A DNA stretch of 64,000 nt from Silvibacterium dinghuense (GTDB lineage: Bacteria > Acidobacteriota > Terriglobia > Terriglobales > Acidobacteriaceae). Location of the stretch: positions 310,001 through 374,000 of the forward strand of contig NZ_SDMK01000001.1 of assembly GCF_004123295.1 (NCBI RefSeq). Direction: 5' to 3'. Positions 7,589-14,859 of the stretch are shown here, in pieces. The first letter of the stretch is position 1. Every line of letters begins with the position of its first letter. The notes below the pieces were generated by a model, which was not told the origin of the DNA, did not search any database, and saw only the letters and a list, made by a program, of their open reading frames with translations. Made by a program: the position numbers and the translations under genes.

Positions 7589-8923
7589 TCAGGAATATCG
7601 CAAAAGCATCATGAAGCCAAAGTCCATGTGCGTCTGCTGATGGCAGTGAAAAAGTGTGGCTCCCGGGTTCTGGGCAACGAAGTCTATCTCCGCCGTGGAC
7701 TTTCCCGGAACCACCACCACATCCTTGCGCAGACCGGACATCGGGCGGCCATCGAGGCTCGTCACCTCGAAAGTATGGCGATGCAGATGCACTGGATGAT
7801 CGTCCATGCTCTTATTCACCATCTGCAAGCGATATCGCTTCCCCTGCTCCAGCATGATGGTGTCCGTCTTCGGATACGACTTGCCATTGATCATCCAGGA
7901 ATCGAATTCGCCGTGACCATGGAACTTCGAGGTAAAGACCAGCGGCAATACGTGATCGGGTACAGCCGCTTCTGCCTGCGGATGGGCAAATTGCGCATAA
8001 TCCCACACTGCCTCGGGCGGCGCGATCCATTGCGGCTCCCCGCTTGCACCGGCATATTCCACCACCACGCCCATGCCGGATCTGCGCACCTCGTCGCGCG
8101 TCTCCCCCAGCACCCACACGCCGGGCCTCGTCATCTCGATCAGCACATCGGCACGCTCGGCCGGGGCCAGCCGCAGCGCCTCAATGTTTTTCTGGACCGG
8201 CACCACATTGCCGTCAAGCGAGAGCACCATCATGCGATGGCCAGCCATGCCCAGCCAGTGCGTGACCGTGGCGCTGGCGTTCACGATGCGAAACAACACA
8301 CGCTGCCCCTGCTTTACGCGGATCGGCTCCCCATGCCCAAGCATGCGGTCATTGATCGTCGCGTAGTCGTAGGAAGCATCCATGGATGTATCGCCGCCAT
8401 TGCCCATGTAGGCATTCCAATCATGCAGGGTAAGAAAGACCTCCTGGTCATAATCGCCAGGCTCCTGTTTCGGCTCGACATAAAAGCAACCGAACTGACC
8501 GGAGTAGAGTGCCCGCTTCAGATCGTGCCCGGCAAAGGTGTGTGTGTGATACCAGCGCGTGCCTGCCGGCTCCGGCGTGAAGTGGTAACGCCGCTCGCCG
8601 CCCGGCGCAATCATCGGCGATCCTTCCTCCATTGCGCCATCCTGATCGGCAGGAATCCATAGCCCATGCCAGTGCACAATCTCCGGGATATCCGTGCGAT
8701 TGTGCACGTCCATGGTGATCGCTTTTCCCTCTGGCCAGCGGATAAGCGGCCCGGGCACGCGCCCGTTATAGGCAAGGGTAGAGATCGTCTTGCCTGGAGC
8801 AATCTCCAGTTTCAGAGGAGCAATTTCCAGCGTTACGTCAGCCGTCTGCTGCGCCCGCAATCTGGCCGCGGCCGCGAGTGCCGCAGTCATCGCTGTGCTC
8901 TTCACGAATTCACGCCGGTTCAT
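7589..8923 (-). CDS. Tat-exported multicopper oxidase
   Basis: 444-residue laccase-like oxidase that couples oxidation of Cu(I), metal ions or phenols to reduction of oxygen to water in the periplasm. The N-terminus MNRREFVKSTAMTAALAAAARL is a Tat signal. Copper ligands are all present: HWHG, WYHTHTF, HPVHLHRHTF and HCHQQTHMDFGF near the C-terminus. The position of the axial type-1 ligand, methionine in CueO, appears to be phenylalanine here. A strong GAGGAG ribosome site sits four bases before the ATG. It is the middle gene of a leftward unit with a putative outer-membrane barrel upstream and a sirtuin downstream, an arrangement like copper-resistance copA/copB pairs. Confidence 0.94.
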   Translation of the reverse strand: MNRREFVKSTAMTAALAAAARLRAQQTADVTLEIAPLKLEIAPGKTISTLAYNGRVPGPLIRWPEGKAITMDVHNRTDIPEIVHWHGLWIPADQDGAMEEGSPMIAPGGERRYHFTPEPAGTRWYHTHTFAGHDLKRALYSGQFGCFYVEPKQEPGDYDQEVFLTLHDWNAYMGNGGDTSMDASYDYATINDRMLGHGEPIRVKQGQRVLFRIVNASATVTHWLGMAGHRMMVLSLDGNVVPVQKNIEALRLAPAERADVLIEMTRPGVWVLGETRDEVRRSGMGVVVEYAGASGEPQWIAPPEAVWDYAQFAHPQAEAAVPDHVLPLVFTSKFHGHGEFDSWMINGKSYPKTDTIMLEQGKRYRLQMVNKSMDDHPVHLHRHTFEVTSLDGRPMSGLRKDVVVVPGKSTAEIDFVAQNPGATLFHCHQQTHMDFGFMMLLRYS

Positions 8924-9766: not shown

Positions 9767-9889
9767 CCTGCGCCTCAACTTTTACTCTCCCGCATGTCTT
9801 GTTCCACTCACCCTAGCATGCGTTGCTGAAGCCGTTGTCATCTCCACCGCACTCAATCTCGACTATCCTTGAAGAGACATCTCGCTCTC
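9767..9889. promoter_or_regulatory. Divergent promoter region
   Basis: 123 bases separate the leftward barrel/oxidase unit from the rightward YkgJ gene, so both promoters must lie here or in the ends of the genes. I could not pick convincing -35/-10 pairs. Confidence 0.4.
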
Positions 9890-10522
9890 ATGCCGAACGA
9901 CACCCAACTCGTACAGATTGTCGCTGACGCATTCACCGACGCAGCACGCCGTTCCAGCTCCATGTCCGGTTCGTGGCTTCCATGCCATCTCGGATGCAAC
10001 CAGTGCTGCATCGGAGTCTTTCCTATCAGCGCACTCGATGCCCAGCGGCTACGGGATGGAATCACCGCGCTCGAGCATGACGATCCGGAGCGCGCCGCCC
10101 GTGTTCATGAGCGTGCGACACGCTCGCGCGAGCGCCTCACGCCGCATTTTCCCGGAGATCCGGAGACCGGGATCCTGCGGGAAGACGACGCAGCAAATGA
10201 AGCGTTCGAAGACTTCGCCAACGACGAACCCTGTCCCGCTCTCGACCCTGCAACTGGCGGCTGCGACCTCTATGCGGCGCGCCCCATGACCTGCCGCATC
10301 TTCGGACCGCCCGTGCGCTCGGCCGAAGGCATCGGCGTCTGCGAGCTCTGCTTTGTTGGCGCCCCGCAGGAGGATATTCTTGCCGCCGAGCTCGACACCA
10401 GCTGGTCACCGCTTGAGGACGAGCTGAATGCACAGGCCGAGCTGGACAGCGGGCAGCATGGATCGACGCTGGTTGCGTTCGTCCTCGCACCCCGGTCGCA
10501 TAATTCTTCTTCCTCTCTGTAA
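9890..10522 (+). CDS. YkgJ-family cysteine cluster protein
   Basis: 210-residue cytoplasmic protein with the cysteine pattern of the YkgJ / zinc-iron chelating family: CHLGCNQCC near residue 30, then CPAL, CDLYAARPMTCRIFGPP and CELCF in the second half. Eight or so cysteines in this order are thought to bind a metal or iron-sulfur cluster; the biochemical role is not established. I prefer ATG 9890 to the TTG at 9869. It lies directly upstream of the bufferin precursor gene, and its stop codon overlaps a possible ECF sigma promoter element, so it is probably not in the same transcript. Members of this family often occur near metal-handling genes. Confidence 0.85.
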   Translation: MPNDTQLVQIVADAFTDAARRSSSMSGSWLPCHLGCNQCCIGVFPISALDAQRLRDGITALEHDDPERAARVHERATRSRERLTPHFPGDPETGILREDDAANEAFEDFANDEPCPALDPATGGCDLYAARPMTCRIFGPPVRSAEGIGVCELCFVGAPQEDILAAELDTSWSPLEDELNAQAELDSGQHGSTLVAFVLAPRSHNSSSSL

Positions 10523-10545
10523 CCTTATCCGGCTGCCGTAGTCCC
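10519..10545 (+). promoter_or_regulatory. Candidate ECF-sigma promoter for the bufferin operon
   Basis: GTAACC at 10519-10524, overlapping the preceding stop codon, matches the -35 element GTAACC I recall for the Caulobacter SigF regulon, which includes bufferin operons. Sixteen bases later the sequence is GTCC, preceded by CGTA, so the -10 is not the CGAA of that consensus. It lies about 90 bases before the precursor start. Assignment is by analogy. Confidence 0.4.
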
Positions 10546-10612
10546 ATGCGGTAGACGGCTTCCCGCCGGCGCATCCGCGCCAGGTCACGAGCCGTATAAG
10601 GAGAAATGACCG

Positions 10613-10903
10613 ATGAAGCACTCAATGAAGAACGCCCTGGTGGCCGCTGCGGTTTCCGGCATGTTGAGCGGCGCTGCCGCACTGCACGCAGCCACGCCGC
10701 AGAGCGCCAACCCCGTGCTGAAGGCGGGCAAGGCATCGTACAGCACCGTCAACATGGACAAGACTGCCAAGCACGCCTGTAAAGGCAAGAACGACTGCAA
10801 GGGTCAGGGTGGCTGCAAGTCCAGCGACAACGGCTGCAAGGGCAAAAACAGCTGCAAGGGCAAGGGTGGCTGCGCAACCGACGGCTCCAAGAAGCCTTCC
10901 TAA
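10613..10903 (+). CDS. bufA: Bufferin-type (BufA2-like) RiPP precursor peptide
   Basis: 96-residue precursor of a ribosomally made, modified metal-binding peptide. AAGGAG lies nine bases before the ATG. A Sec signal peptide (about residues 1-26, ending ALHA) is followed by a lysine- and glycine-rich segment with exactly six cysteines at 56, 62, 68, 75, 81 and 87. They form two copies of a 19-residue unit with core CKGKNxCKGxGGC, the pattern of BufA2 bufferins. In known systems a DUF692 enzyme converts such cysteines to thiooxazole-type heterocycles and the exported product binds copper. The next genes encode that enzyme and its partner. Chemistry and metal are inferred from family knowledge. 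Confidence 0.92.
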   Translation: MKHSMKNALVAAAVSGMLSGAAALHAATPQSANPVLKAGKASYSTVNMDKTAKHACKGKNDCKGQGGCKSSDNGCKGKNSCKGKGGCATDGSKKPS

Positions 10904-10923
10904 CTCCACCGACCAGCTACTTC

Positions 10924-10950
10924 GCGGGCCGGACATGATCTCCGGCCCGT
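10924..10950 (+). terminator. Hairpin between bufferin precursor and enzyme genes
   Basis: CGGGCCGGA (10925-10933) and TCCGGCCCG (10941-10949) are a perfect nine-base-pair stem with a seven-base loop, and a G-U pair could extend it. There is no U tract. It sits 24 bases before the next start codon and could act as a partial terminator or protect the upstream mRNA end. Confidence 0.6.
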
Positions 10951-10973
10951 ACGCTACCCCACCGGAGTTCCCT

Positions 10974-11867
10974 ATGGCTGCAAATCGCTTCAACGGATAT
11001 ACCGATTACGGAGTCGGCATCGGGCTGCGCGTCCCGCACTACAATCACATCCTCACGCGCAAACCTGGCGTCGACTGGTTCGAGATCATCTCGGAGAACT
11101 ACATGGTCGACGGCGGACGCCCGCTGGAAGTTCTCGATCGCATCCTCGATCAGTACAAGGTCGTCCAGCACGGCGTCTCCATGTACTTCGGCTCGGTCAC
11201 CGAGCCGGACCCTGAGCACCTGAAGCGGCTCAAGACACTGGTGCGCCGCACGAAGACGCCGTGGCTCAGCGATCATCTCTGCTGGGGCTCAGTGGATGGC
11301 CGTTACACGCACGATCTGCTGCCGATGCCCTACACCTGGGAGGCCGTGCGCCATACCGCCGAGCGCATCCGGAATGTTCAGGACTATCTTGAAATCCCGG
11401 TCGTCGTCGAAAACGTTTCGAGCTATGCCGAATATCACATCTCTGAGATGACCGAGTGGGAGTTTCTCAATGAAGTTGTTGAGCGAGCGGACTGCGGCAT
11501 CCTGCTCGACGTGAATAACATCTACGTCTCCTCGCAGAACCACAGCTTCGATCCGTTTACCTACGTAAATGCGGTGCCTGCCGAGCGCATTGCGCAGATC
11601 CACATCGCCGGCCATTCGAAGTTCGAGAAGTACATCCTCGACACGCATGACCACCCCGTGCTTGACCCGGTGTGGGATCTCTATGCGCGCACCATCGAGC
11701 GCGCCGGCCCCACAGCCACGCTGCTCGAATGGGATGACAACATTCCCAGCTTCGACGAAGTGCATGCAGAAGCGCTCAAGGCCAATCGTTATCTGCAGTC
11801 CGCGGCCTCGGCATCTCACACCGTCATTGAAGAGCCGGAGCTTGCAGGGAAAGCAGGCGCACGATGA
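10974..11867 (+). CDS. bufB: DUF692 multinuclear iron oxidase (bufferin-modifying enzyme)
   Basis: 297-residue TIM-barrel enzyme of the MNIO family (MbnB/BufB/HvfB type), predicted to use two or three iron ions and oxygen to modify precursor cysteines. The start is ATG 10974, with CGGAG six bases upstream; an ATG at 10935 lies inside the hairpin loop and is unlikely. Likely iron or active-site residues are visible in order: H66 (HGVS), D100 and H101 (SDHLCW), E146 and N147 (VVENVSSY), D179 and N181-N182 (LLDVNNIY), H210 and H214 (IHIAGH), D223/H225 (DTHDH), E252 (LLEWDDNIP). It overlaps the next gene by ATGA. Family membership is clear; the product structure is inferred. Confidence 0.95.
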   Translation: MAANRFNGYTDYGVGIGLRVPHYNHILTRKPGVDWFEIISENYMVDGGRPLEVLDRILDQYKVVQHGVSMYFGSVTEPDPEHLKRLKTLVRRTKTPWLSDHLCWGSVDGRYTHDLLPMPYTWEAVRHTAERIRNVQDYLEIPVVVENVSSYAEYHISEMTEWEFLNEVVERADCGILLDVNNIYVSSQNHSFDPFTYVNAVPAERIAQIHIAGHSKFEKYILDTHDHPVLDPVWDLYARTIERAGPTATLLEWDDNIPSFDEVHAEALKANRYLQSAASASHTVIEEPELAGKAGAR

Positions 11868-12820
11868 GCCACATCGCAATCTCAGCGCCCACACTTGAAC
11901 AGCTACAGCGCCGCGTCGCCGCAGCCATCATGCACCCGCTCACCGGCAGCGAGGCGATGCCGCGCATGCGCCATGACGGCACATCGAACCGCGCCGAAGC
12001 CGAATCCCTGATTCGCCCCAATGACCGCCTCACCGCATTCGAGCGCCTCGAGATCTACAACCGCCAGTACTGGTTCCGCCTCTATTCGTCCTTTGAAGAA
12101 GACTTCCCGGGGCTCAAGGCCATCCTTGGCGCGAAACCCTTCGACCGCCTCATGCGCAATTACCTCACCGCATGCCCGTCGCGCTCTTTTTCTCTCCGTA
12201 ACCTCGGCTCCGCGTTGGAAGGCTGGCTCGAAGCGCACCCCGAATTCCTGGGGCCGCGCCGCGATCTCGCCATGGATATGGCGCGGCTCGAATGGGCGCA
12301 CATCGAAGCGTTCGATTCCGCACACCTGCCACTGCTCGATCCCGACGAACTCGCAGCCATGGACGCGGATTCCGTGCTCCGCCTGCAGCCGCATCTCCAC
12401 GTGCTCGCGCTGCGCTATCCGGTCGAAGATCTGCTGATTGCACTGCGCAGCGAAGCGGGCAGCCAGGACGCGGCGAGCAACAGCGCCAGCGTTGCCCGGC
12501 GCAGCAGGCGCGTTCGCCGTGTCGCATCGCTTGCGCCTGAGGCCATCCATCTGGCTGTTCATCGCCATGAAAATTCCGTTTACTACAAGCGCCTCGACGC
12601 CGAAGAGTTTCATTTGCTTGCCGCACTGATTGCCGGCAACTCCCTCGGCGAAGCCATCCATGCCGCCTTCGCTGGCAGCAATCTCCCCGAAGCGGATCAG
12701 AGCACGATCTTGCAGCAGTCCTTTGCCTCCTGGATGGCAATGGGCTGGTTCGCCGCACATTTGACTACAAGCCCTGCCATTACAGATCCAGCTATCACAA
12801 ATTCAGGAGAATCCCGATGA
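11864..12820 (+). CDS. bufC: DUF2063 partner protein of the bufferin enzyme
   Basis: 318-residue protein with the N-terminal DUF2063 domain (wrongly called DNA-binding in some databases), recognised from LTAFERLEIYNRQYWFRLYSSF, EEDFPGLKAILG, FDRLMRNYL and SRSFSLRNLGSALEGWL. In bufferin and HvfABC systems this protein binds the precursor and presents it to the DUF692 enzyme. The C-terminal half (about 170-318) is less conserved and has a basic stretch ARRSRRVRRVASL around residue 210 and an HLLAAL helix near the end. ATGA overlaps at both ends couple it to bufB and the DoxX gene. It carries no signal peptide, so modification should happen in the cytoplasm. Confidence 0.93.
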   Translation: MSHIAISAPTLEQLQRRVAAAIMHPLTGSEAMPRMRHDGTSNRAEAESLIRPNDRLTAFERLEIYNRQYWFRLYSSFEEDFPGLKAILGAKPFDRLMRNYLTACPSRSFSLRNLGSALEGWLEAHPEFLGPRRDLAMDMARLEWAHIEAFDSAHLPLLDPDELAAMDADSVLRLQPHLHVLALRYPVEDLLIALRSEAGSQDAASNSASVARRSRRVRRVASLAPEAIHLAVHRHENSVYYKRLDAEEFHLLAALIAGNSLGEAIHAAFAGSNLPEADQSTILQQSFASWMAMGWFAAHLTTSPAITDPAITNSGESR

Positions 12821-13323
12821 CCGCGATCGTCTCTCCAGCCGTGCCCCGCTCCGGCATGGCGCAGCTCTATGTCCACTTCTGCCGTCTGGTCTCGCGGCTC
12901 CAGTCGCCGCTGCTGCTCGCCATCCGGCTCTACTGGGGATGGCAGTTCGCGCAGACCGGCTGGGGCAAGCTGCACAACCTTGCACATGTGAAGGATTTCT
13001 TTACCTCCCTTGGCATTCCCGCGCCCGGCCTCATGGCTCCGGCCATCTCGGTGCTGGAGTTTGCCGGTGGCATTCTACTCATGCTCGGGCTCGGCAGCCG
13101 GCTCATCGCATTGCTACTCAGTGCGAACATGTTTGTCGCCTATCTCACTGCCGACCGTGAGGCGCTCACCTCCGTCTTCAGCGACCCCGGCAAGTTCTAC
13201 ATCGCCGATCCTTTCACCTTCCTCTTTGCTTCCCTGCTTGTGCTCGTCTTCGGGTCCGGGTTCTTTGCGCTCGATACGTTCATTGGCAAATACATGGCGC
13301 GCCGAGGCACAATGGAGGAATGA
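12817..13323 (+). CDS. DoxX-family membrane protein of the bufferin operon
   Basis: 168 residues with four hydrophobic segments, typical of DoxX: LLLAIRLYWGWQFAQTGWGKL, the LGIPAPGLMAPAISVLEFAGG segment, LLMLGLGSRLIALLLSANMF and FTFLFASLLVLVFGSGFFALD. The early arginine-tryptophan-glutamine region is the usual DoxX signature. DoxX proteins accompany many bufferin/Hvf clusters (HvfX) but their role is unsettled; ideas include redox support at the membrane or handling of the modified peptide. Overlaps of ATGA with bufC before and the sigma gene after show it is made from the same message. Confidence 0.9.
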   Translation: MTAIVSPAVPRSGMAQLYVHFCRLVSRLQSPLLLAIRLYWGWQFAQTGWGKLHNLAHVKDFFTSLGIPAPGLMAPAISVLEFAGGILLMLGLGSRLIALLLSANMFVAYLTADREALTSVFSDPGKFYIADPFTFLFASLLVLVFGSGFFALDTFIGKYMARRGTMEE

Positions 13324-13988
13324 CCGCTTCCGGCCCCATCGGCGCCGCGCCGGGCCTCTCCACTGAGGCCGCGCTGATTACCGCCGTGCTGGCCGGAGAG
13401 CGGGACAAGTTCCATCTCCTCATCCTTCCCTATGAAGCGCAGCTTTACCGCACAGCTTTTGCACTCGTAAAGAACACCCAAGAGGCCGAAGACGTGGTGC
13501 AGGACGCGGTGCTCAAGGCCTATCGCCGCCTGGCCAGTTTCCGCGGTGATGCGAAATTCAGCACCTGGCTGATCGCCATTACCCTGAACGAAGCACGTAG
13601 CCGCCTGCGCCGTGAGAACCGCGTCCCCACCGACTCGCTCGACGAAAGGCGGGAGGATCAGGGCGACTTTACGCCCGCTGCACTTACTGACTGGCGCGAG
13701 GTGCCGCAGGCCGCGCTCGAGCGGCAGGAGATCCGCTCCCTCATCGAGTGTGCACTCGCCGAACTGCCCGAGAGCTACCGCGAGATCATCATCCTGCGGG
13801 ATGTCGAAGAGCTCAGTGTGAATGAAACCGCCGAGCTGCTGGGCATCTCCGTTGCGCTGGTGAAGGTACGCCTGCATCGGGCGCGCATGATGCTGCAGAA
13901 GATACTCGCGCCGCAGCTCAGCCGCACCGCAAACAATGTGCTCCAATCCGGCAAACGCTCCTGGCTGGGGAGGTTCTCATGGCTATGA
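13320..13988 (+). CDS. ECF sigma factor
   Basis: 222-residue extracytoplasmic-function sigma factor with only regions 2 and 4. Region 2 (about 25-95) includes AFALVKNTQEAEDVVQDAVLKAYRR and FRGDAKFSTWLIAITLN; region 4 (about 130-190) includes LPESYREIIILRDVEELSVNETAELL followed by VALVKVRLHRARMML, the DNA-reading helix. It starts by an ATGA overlap with the DoxX gene and overlaps the anti-sigma gene. Being at the end of the bufferin operon it very likely activates that operon, giving positive feedback once released (inference; such pairing is known for other bufferin loci). Confidence 0.94.
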   Translation: MTASGPIGAAPGLSTEAALITAVLAGERDKFHLLILPYEAQLYRTAFALVKNTQEAEDVVQDAVLKAYRRLASFRGDAKFSTWLIAITLNEARSRLRRENRVPTDSLDERREDQGDFTPAALTDWREVPQAALERQEIRSLIECALAELPESYREIIILRDVEELSVNETAELLGISVALVKVRLHRARMMLQKILAPQLSRTANNVLQSGKRSWLGRFSWL

Positions 13989-14233
13989 ACTGCCGCCACG
14001 TCTGGGACCACATCTCCGGATACATCGACGGCACGCTTTCCGCCGAAGTGCGTCTCGAGGTCGAGCGCCATCTCGCCCATTGCGAAATCTGCTCGGCGAT
14101 CCTCGACTCGACGCGGAACATTATCATTCTCGTGGCCGACGATCGTGTCTTCGAGCTGCCTGTCGATTTCAGCAAACGGCTGCATGCCCGGCTCGACAAG
14201 GTTCTGAGCGAGGAGCCGCCGGAACCAGCCTGA
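13979..14233 (+). CDS. Zinc-finger anti-sigma factor (cytoplasmic)
   Basis: 84-residue protein with the zf-HC2/ZAS fold: NCRHVWDHISGYIDGTLS at the start and VERHLAHCEICSAIL, giving the H-x3-C-x2-C zinc site. Such domains hold the partner sigma factor inactive and often release it when thiols are oxidised or metal displaces zinc. There is no membrane segment, so sensing is cytoplasmic. GGGGAGG lies five bases before ATG 13979; ATG 13985, which overlaps the sigma stop as ATGA, is an alternative start that removes two residues. It directly follows the ECF sigma gene, its expected partner. Confidence 0.9.
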   Translation: MAMNCRHVWDHISGYIDGTLSAEVRLEVERHLAHCEICSAILDSTRNIIILVADDRVFELPVDFSKRLHARLDKVLSEEPPEPA

Positions 14234-14246
14234 CGCGAGCTACACC

Positions 14247-14672
14247 CTAGTGAAGATGCGGATGGTGCATCATGGAGTGCGTCCACCATTCCAGAGCCAG
14301 CAGGACCAGCGTCACAATCGCCAGCGCAAACTGCCATCGCTCCGAACGCCGCTCCTTCGCCGTAAGCGGCTGGATACGCCATTGAGCCGCCGGACGCTGG
14401 CGCAGCCGGCGCACCCGCCACAGCACGTAAAGATTCACCAGCGCACCAGCCAATGCCAGCAGCATCATCGGAATCCGGATCGCATCCTGATGCCAGCCGC
14501 GCGCCGGAGCATCGGTTCCTGCAGCCACAGCCAGCGCTCCCAGGCCAATGAGAACGCGCACACCGCTGATGGTGAGTACCGCGGTGCACAGACTCTGCAG
14601 CAGGGCGAAAACGAAGCTCGACCAGTTAATCCAGCGGGTTCTGGCAGACAGGATAGGGTTTTCGGCAGCCAT
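14247..14672 (-). CDS. Four-helix membrane protein with histidine-rich C-terminus
   Basis: 141 residues from ATG ending at 14672, which has TAGGA eight bases upstream; longer starts to 14744 have none. Four hydrophobic segments are visible: WSSFVFALLQSLCTAVLTI, VLIGLGALAVAAG, MMLLALAGALVNLYVLW and WQFALAIVTLVLLALEWW. The tail ends HSMMHHPHLH, five histidines and two methionines in ten residues, a plausible metal-binding tip. I do not recognise a named family. It points towards the bufferin operon, ending 13 bases after the anti-sigma gene. A role in metal handling is only suggested by the tail and the location. Confidence 0.65.
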   Translation of the reverse strand: MAAENPILSARTRWINWSSFVFALLQSLCTAVLTISGVRVLIGLGALAVAAGTDAPARGWHQDAIRIPMMLLALAGALVNLYVLWRVRRLRQRPAAQWRIQPLTAKERRSERWQFALAIVTLVLLALEWWTHSMMHHPHLH

Positions 14673-14859
14673 CGCACTCATCCTACCAGCGTAGCCATGC
14701 AATTGTTTATAGCGCCCATAAACGAAGAACTCCTGCCTGCACATCCTGCTTGTCCCTGAAGCTGGACGGGACTAGATTGAGCTATGGCTCACGCACATCC
14801 CTCTTGCCGCCGTTGTCCTGGGCCCGCGCACACATCTCGCCACCAGCAAGGAGCCCGCT

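Follow-up and report, generated by a model that had tools for sequence, protein, structure and literature searches.

A Bufferin-Type Operon with a Linked ECF Sigma/Anti-Sigma Pair and a Shared Promoter Motif in Acidobacteriaceae

Genes and Organization of the Locus

The DNA stretch considered here (the window) comprises 64,000 nucleotides of the forward strand of Silvibacterium dinghuense, an acidobacterium of the family Acidobacteriaceae (RefSeq assembly GCF_004123295.1, contig NZ_SDMK01000001.1, positions 310,001 to 374,000). Between window positions 10613 and 14233 lies a real bufferin-type operon, in which the genes for a peptide that is rich in cysteines and probably binds copper, and for its maturation, are followed by those of an extracytoplasmic function (ECF) sigma factor and of a short zinc-finger anti-sigma factor. 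The unit reaches past these limits, with a promoter-like site upstream (10518–10546) and a convergent membrane gene downstream, called dn hereafter (14247–14681).

All six genes are on the + strand. The first, bufA (10613–10903), encodes a BufA2-like precursor of 96 residues with six cysteines, arranged as CxxxxxC-xxxxx-C units. It is followed by bufB (10974–11867, with an alternative in-frame ATG at 10935), which encodes the DUF692/MNIO maturase. The assignment of BufB is firm, with 364.6 bits for PF05114, 354.6 bits for the NCBIfam model MNIO_BufB (curated cut-off 310) and a match to the DUF692 structure 3bww of the PDB (E 3.8e-51); in a profile search, it is the single PF05114 match of the 5.1-Mb genome. 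Next come bufC (11864–12820), for the DUF2063 partner protein (PF09836, 53.1 bits, cut-off 27.2), and doxX (12817–13323), for a DoxX membrane protein (PF07681, 68.4 bits, cut-off 23.6), so that precursor, MNIO, DUF2063 and DoxX genes, the core of a bufferin cluster, stand together. The ECF sigma gene (13320–13988; Sigma70_r4_2 62.8 bits, Sigma70_r2 61.1 bits, TIGR02937 108 bits for a cut-off of 42.9) and the anti-sigma gene (13979–14233; 84 residues, zf-HC2 52.8 bits) close the series. The latter product is of the zinc-associated anti-sigma (ZAS) type, with C5, H31, C35 and C38 as candidate ligands.

A preliminary description of this DNA had listed the same six genes; each lies where it had been placed, and the families were matched by Pfam and NCBIfam. 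The junctions bufB/bufC, bufC/doxX and doxX/sigma are indeed ATGA overlaps, and the anti-sigma start is found within the 3′ end of the sigma gene, with a 10-base overlap. The earlier proposal that the whole set is translated together is acceptable from bufB to the anti-sigma gene; it has to exclude the precursor, since bufA and bufB do not overlap and are separated by 31 or 70 nucleotides, depending on the bufB start. The acidobacterial setting is also sound, the best-scoring named relative being Silvibacterium bohemicum, with a BufB 87% identical. A chance assembly of open reading frames is ruled out by the protein families, the overlaps and the conserved neighborhoods.

Conservation of the Sigma/Anti-Sigma Linkage

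In a sample of 396 genomes of the phylum, 44 of them from the same family, PF05114 matches above cut-off were found in 105 genomes, including 23 of the 44. Of these 23 bufB-positive family genomes, 21 have the sigma and anti-sigma genes linked to bufABC; the exceptions are genome G352, where the pair lies on another contig (locus L172), and genome G249. Outside this family, 38 regions of the phylum were retrieved, and none has a sigma match of at least 120 bits. Of the 122 PF05114 places listed, 60 were retrieved as regions of 3.4–16 kb, nearly all chosen by score, so that weaker MNIO types fall outside this coverage; the named loci are the best 80 of 573.

Seven gene orders occur among 53 sigma-linked loci, drawn from named and unnamed sets that overlap. 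Besides the order of the window (buf-doxX-sigma-anti-sigma), doxX-sigma-anti-sigma can be divergent from the buf genes or precede them in the order doxX-sigma-anti-sigma-buf; the sigma-anti-sigma pair can stand upstream, or behind bufC with doxX divergent; and it can be divergent alone, or face bufC together with doxX. In the window and in relatives, bufB and bufC directly follow bufA on its 3′ side. The pair is also present in four genomes devoid of PF05114 genes (G345, G241, G257 and G121). The bufferin operon and its sigma pair are conserved in Acidobacteriaceae.

In the anti-sigma factor, C5, H31, C35 and C38 are kept in 98–100% of 54 aligned homologues. This short zf-HC2 protein, with a cysteine plus HxxxCxxC, conforms to the ZAS definition, its zinc binding being a prediction. 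Its score against the RsrA model TIGR03988 (33.4 bits) is under the cut-off of 62.5.

Promoter Motif and Autoregulation

An ECF-type promoter-like site, TGTAACC-N15-AGTCCCA, was found before bufA (10518–10546, + strand) by pattern matching in the S. dinghuense genome. The underlying motif, CTGTAACC-spacer-TCnnA, came from counting pairs of words in the sequences before bufA and before doxX-led operons. Upstream regions identical over their last 120 bases were eliminated before the counts below, which reduced the sigma-linked bufA set from 53 to 47, the dn set from 69 to 62 and the doxX-led set from 23 to 19. TGTAAC is present in 34 of the 47 sigma-linked bufA upstreams, for an expected mean of 1.7 under a first-order Markov model, and TGTAAC or TGTTAC in 43. 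TGTAAC also precedes doxX-led sigma operons in 18 of 19 cases and sigma-led ones in 9 of 18; for bufA genes of Verrucomicrobiota and of other acidobacterial families, the count is 1 of 25. In G352, despite its unlinked pair, bufA (L131) keeps the motif. One motif shared by bufA and separately transcribed sigma genes is most simply read as a positive feedback loop, and the operon is probably autoregulated by its own sigma factor. The self-amplification suggested in the preliminary description therefore appears probable, the bufA motif recurring before separately transcribed doxX-sigma-anti-sigma operons.

Several counts weigh against such autoregulation. TGTAAC is also found before bufA in 16 of 61 cases that lack a linked sigma gene, and in 4 of 62 dn upstreams. 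The strict motif gives 6 matches in the S. dinghuense genome versus 12 for a reversed-pattern control, so that the number of matches proves nothing. Among 36 chosen loci lacking a linked sigma gene, a sigma match elsewhere of at least 170 bits (our own threshold for a sigma-positive genome) was found in 5 of 10 genomes with the motif versus 4 of 26 without it (p 0.08), several of these genomes being drafts.

Besides the bufA site, strict-motif sites in the S. dinghuense genome start 51 nucleotides before a gene for MsrA, whose N-terminus is lipobox-like, and 38 nucleotides before a DsbD-like gene. The places of these three sites are suggestive. Of the 30 msrA loci returned for relatives, 8 of the 19 from sigma-positive genomes have a site before msrA, compared with none of the 11 from sigma-negative ones (p 0.014; here as below, kinship is uncorrected). 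In genome G404 (L221), the sigma, anti-sigma and msrA genes are contiguous. Other figures speak less well for this candidate regulon. The strict two-block form gives 6 of 19 versus 0 of 11 (p 0.06), and bare TGTAAC 8 of 19 versus 1 of 11 (p 0.10), the single sigma-negative case having no −10 element. For the DsbD-like gene, 21 of 30 returned loci were examined and 17 parsed, with a site in 4 of 9 sigma-positive versus 0 of 8 sigma-negative genomes (p 0.08); in S. dinghuense, this site ends about 8 nucleotides before the chosen start codon. Taken with the RsrA/MseR-like cysteines of the anti-sigma factor, the msrA and dsbD-like sites point to thiol or oxidant stress as an inducer at least as likely as metal.

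As a side observation, a lactonase-like gene lies behind L189, and L191 and L192 are further matches.

The Precursor and the bufA–bufB Spacer

BufB scores above the MNIO_BufB cut-off; the precursor reaches 35 bits for the NCBIfam BufA2 model, under the curated cut-off of 60. This counts against a plain Buf2 assignment, hence the label “BufA2-like”. Comparable scores were obtained for three six-cysteine relatives (33.4, 36.6 and 38.3), with 19 for a four-cysteine relative and 62.6 for a duplicated precursor of 150 residues from another acidobacterial family. Precursors with 14–17 cysteines, made of duplicated six-cysteine units, are also seen in other acidobacterial families (L134, L151 and L161). 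Judged by eye, the N-terminus of the window precursor is signal-peptide-like.

Of 114 BufA homologues, 67 have six cysteines, as in the window, and 27 have four. All the four-cysteine forms (for example L039, L045, L117, L128, L052 and L074) read CxxxxxC...CxxxxxC, the two central cysteines being absent. Their distribution on the BufB tree needs three changes (a clade of 22 rows, L052 and L105), and a single origin would be compatible with this tree. The idea that both central cysteines always vanish jointly was refuted by two precursors with five cysteines each (L054 and L154). The natural four-cysteine forms offer a ready test for which cysteines get modified, a point left unsettled for Buf2 in PMC12452194.

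The spacer between bufA and bufB contains an inverted repeat (10925–10949, + strand) with 9-bp arms, GGGCCGGA and TCCGGCCC, which spans the alternative bufB ATG at 10935. Among 17 relatives inspected, 8 have arms of at least 7 bp in the same spacer, with differing sequences (mononucleotide shuffles serving as control). The repeat could possibly form a hairpin fixing the precursor:enzyme ratio.

The Membrane Gene dn and the Neighborhood

The dn gene (14247–14681, − strand; reading frame open from 14744) encodes a membrane protein of 144 residues and is convergent with the anti-sigma gene. Of the 396 genomes, 26 gave a clear match and one more a marginal match, and all the clear matches are in Acidobacteriaceae: 22 of the 23 family genomes with bufB have dn, versus 4 of the 21 without (Fisher 2e-7; kinship uncorrected). 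Among the 20 sigma-linked loci retrieved from the family, 18 have dn next to the anti-sigma gene, the two genes being tail to tail in 15; they are also neighbors at loci in which no PF05114 gene turned up (L171, L176 and L185). Given this association, dn is likely a part of the unit. It is not specific to bufferins, since solitary paralogues exist at other sites: some genomes have further copies at unrelated places, and those of L173–L184 lie in conserved neighborhoods without sigma or bufferin genes. In genome G422, dn is divergent from msrA (L196). That the motif controls dn generally was rejected in view of its count in dn upstreams, though L050 has a good site before dn.

Fourteen columns are invariant in 32 dn sequences, including one cysteine (in LQSxC), two histidines and one glutamate. 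The predicted model shows three long helices, with a mean predicted local distance difference test (pLDDT) score of 81 and a predicted template modeling (pTM) score of 0.53; no PDB structure matched it with E ≤0.001. No dn protein scored above the cut-off of PF05425 (CopD); 10 of the 34 members match it weakly, with E 0.0049 at best, and CopD is missing from the three matches of the window protein. The CopD likeness is thus suggestive only, and assignment to a known fold or family was dropped, with nothing firm from profile matches or the PDB search.

On the other side of the operon, a multicopper oxidase gene (7589–8923, − strand) lies about 1.7 kb before bufA; L031 and L033 have it in the same place, with a weak third match in L186. 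This gene and a neighbor encoding 281 residues were not retained as parts of the unit, their homologues occurring in 3 and 2 of 156 loci. Just 5′ of the bufA promoter, 9869–10522 encodes a CxxCxxCC protein (PF03692, zinc- or iron-chelating), also seen in L031, L033 and L034, which are close relatives.

Proposed Mechanism and Alternatives

The reading favored here, with a probability of roughly 0.7, is that of a Buf2-like bufferin operon positively autoregulated by an ECF sigma factor that a short ZAS anti-sigma factor, itself zinc-binding, keeps in check. It builds on the gene content, the overlaps, the linkage across varied gene orders, the common promoter motif and the conserved ZAS residues. 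In the resting state, the anti-sigma factor would bind the sigma factor. Attack on the C5/H31/C35/C38 site, by an oxidant or by a metal that reacts with thiols (such as copper or gold), would free the sigma factor, which could then start transcription at the CTGTAACC-spacer-TCnnA sites before bufA. The output would be more precursor, MNIO–DUF2063 maturase, DoxX, sigma and anti-sigma factor. After modification of its cysteines by BufB–BufC, the exported peptide would bind metal, and the sites before the MsrA and DsbD-like reductase genes would couple this buffering to the repair of oxidized envelope proteins. Once thiols are restored, the anti-sigma factor would shut the loop. We infer in this scheme that the sigma factor recognizes the motif, and likewise the inducer, the cysteine chemistry, export and metal binding, as well as the roles of DoxX and dn.

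The most serious alternative, less probable and nevertheless to be reckoned with, is a response mainly to oxidants (reactive chlorine, peroxide, disulfide), in which the peptide would serve envelope thiol chemistry and metals would act only through thiols. Such a response would fit the sites upstream of msrA and of the dsbD-like gene, the ZAS spacing identical to that of MseR and the hypochlorite-responsive RpoE2 of Haemophilus, which controls msrAB and a doxX operon (PMC7907618). However, characterized bufferins and related peptides are described as binding copper and aiding growth in copper excess (PMC12452194 and PMC12668002, both in part), and the multicopper oxidase gene is only 1.7 kb away, though this neighborhood is kept in few relatives.

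The sigma, anti-sigma and dn genes might also form an independent unit that stands beside the bufferin genes without controlling them, as the four genomes with the pair and no PF05114 gene and the two bufferin-positive genomes of 23 without a linked pair could indicate. This is very unlikely in view of a linkage held through seven gene orders, of the motif common to bufA and doxX-led sigma operons, of the doxX/sigma ATGA overlap and of the motif kept before bufA in G352 despite the unlinked pair. Finally, an unmodified precursor, acting as a plain cysteine-rich metal-binding peptide while BufB serves another substrate, would agree with the low BufA2 score and is highly improbable, with bufB and bufC directly after bufA in the window and relatives and BufB over the bufferin-maturase cut-off.

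Comparison with Known Systems

Two assumptions on precursors enter this comparison: that of the Neisseria operon is taken to be of a type other than the BufA2-like one of the window, and CC3254 of Caulobacter to be a Buf1 precursor, which would make CC3254–CC3257 a Buf1 operon.

The closest parallel is the Neisseria meningitidis operon NMB2140–NMB2145, which is described, in the accessible passages of PMC2893595, as polycistronic and autoregulated by sigma-E, with a DoxX-like gene and, at its end, rpoE and the gene of the zinc anti-sigma factor MseR. Both systems combine an operon, autoregulated in Neisseria and probably so here, with doxX, sigma and, directly downstream, ZAS anti-sigma genes, and a methionine sulfoxide reductase in the regulon: MsrA/MsrB are under sigma-E in Neisseria (PMC2893595), and msrA is a candidate here. 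The MseR residues Cys4, His30, Cys34 and Cys37 (same source) have the same spacing as C5, H31, C35 and C38 of the window protein. The −35 element differs (GTMAGBWTT in PMC2893595, CTGTAACC here), and a dn-type gene is not reported for the Neisseria operon in those passages. The gonococcal operon holds the DUF2063 protein NGO1945 (PMC2954202, in part), and gonophorin is presented in the relevant passages of PMC12668002 as the MNIO product of N. gonorrhoeae.

Buf2 precursors are recognized by six (or twelve) conserved cysteines, and that of the window has six. According to the available parts of a survey (PMC12452194), Buf2 clusters have a six-cysteine precursor, MNIO, DUF2063 and DoxX as core genes, as in the window; there, sigma and NrsF genes are reported for Buf1 clusters and sigma genes were not found in Buf2, in contrast with the ECF/ZAS pair linked here. 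The Caulobacter SigF/NrsF system, as far as described in the passages of PMC3511200, controls the CC3254–CC3257 operon, including a DoxX gene, under metal stress. Both cases thus join an ECF sigma factor to a doxX operon. NrsF is a six-helix membrane protein with a cysteine-dependent anti-sigma action, and SigF is not strongly autoregulated (same source), whereas a short zinc-finger protein and predicted autoregulation are found here. The hypochlorite-induced RpoE2/HrsE of Haemophilus influenzae, with msrAB and a doxX operon in its regulon, has a similar small ZAS anti-sigma factor, but its doxX operon is apart from rpoE2, and rpoE2 is hardly autoregulated (PMC7907618). Passages of PMC8692599 on six-cysteine DUF692 clusters in gammaproteobacterial contigs do not contain the word “sigma”.

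The in-operon regulator, seen in the preliminary description as a mark of the acidobacterial form, is present in the window and not peculiar to it, given NMB2140–NMB2145 and the sigma/NrsF genes of Buf1 clusters. For this regulator as for the Msr link, precedents exist. No description of the acidobacterial MNIO/DUF692/DUF2063/DoxX arrangement was found in the open literature searched, subscription papers lying outside that search. The BufA2-like precursor, the phylum, the promoter and dn set the window operon apart from these precedents. One may speculate, and this is rather doubtful, about a metal/thiol module of seven genes in Acidobacteriaceae that tunes itself, with dn as a third regulatory or metal/electron-transfer partner, in which ECF–ZAS control of MsrA and of a copper-binding ribosomally synthesized and post-translationally modified peptide would be independent of, or far older than, the Neisseria and Haemophilus systems. 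With this locus, the range of sigma-controlled bufferins grows to take in Buf2-like precursors and a major soil phylum, and a specific promoter and regulon become open to testing. The presence, in a second phylum, of MsrA and an MNIO-made peptide under one ECF–ZAS switch would suggest that these peptides have a role in envelope thiol/oxidant defense as much as in copper storage.

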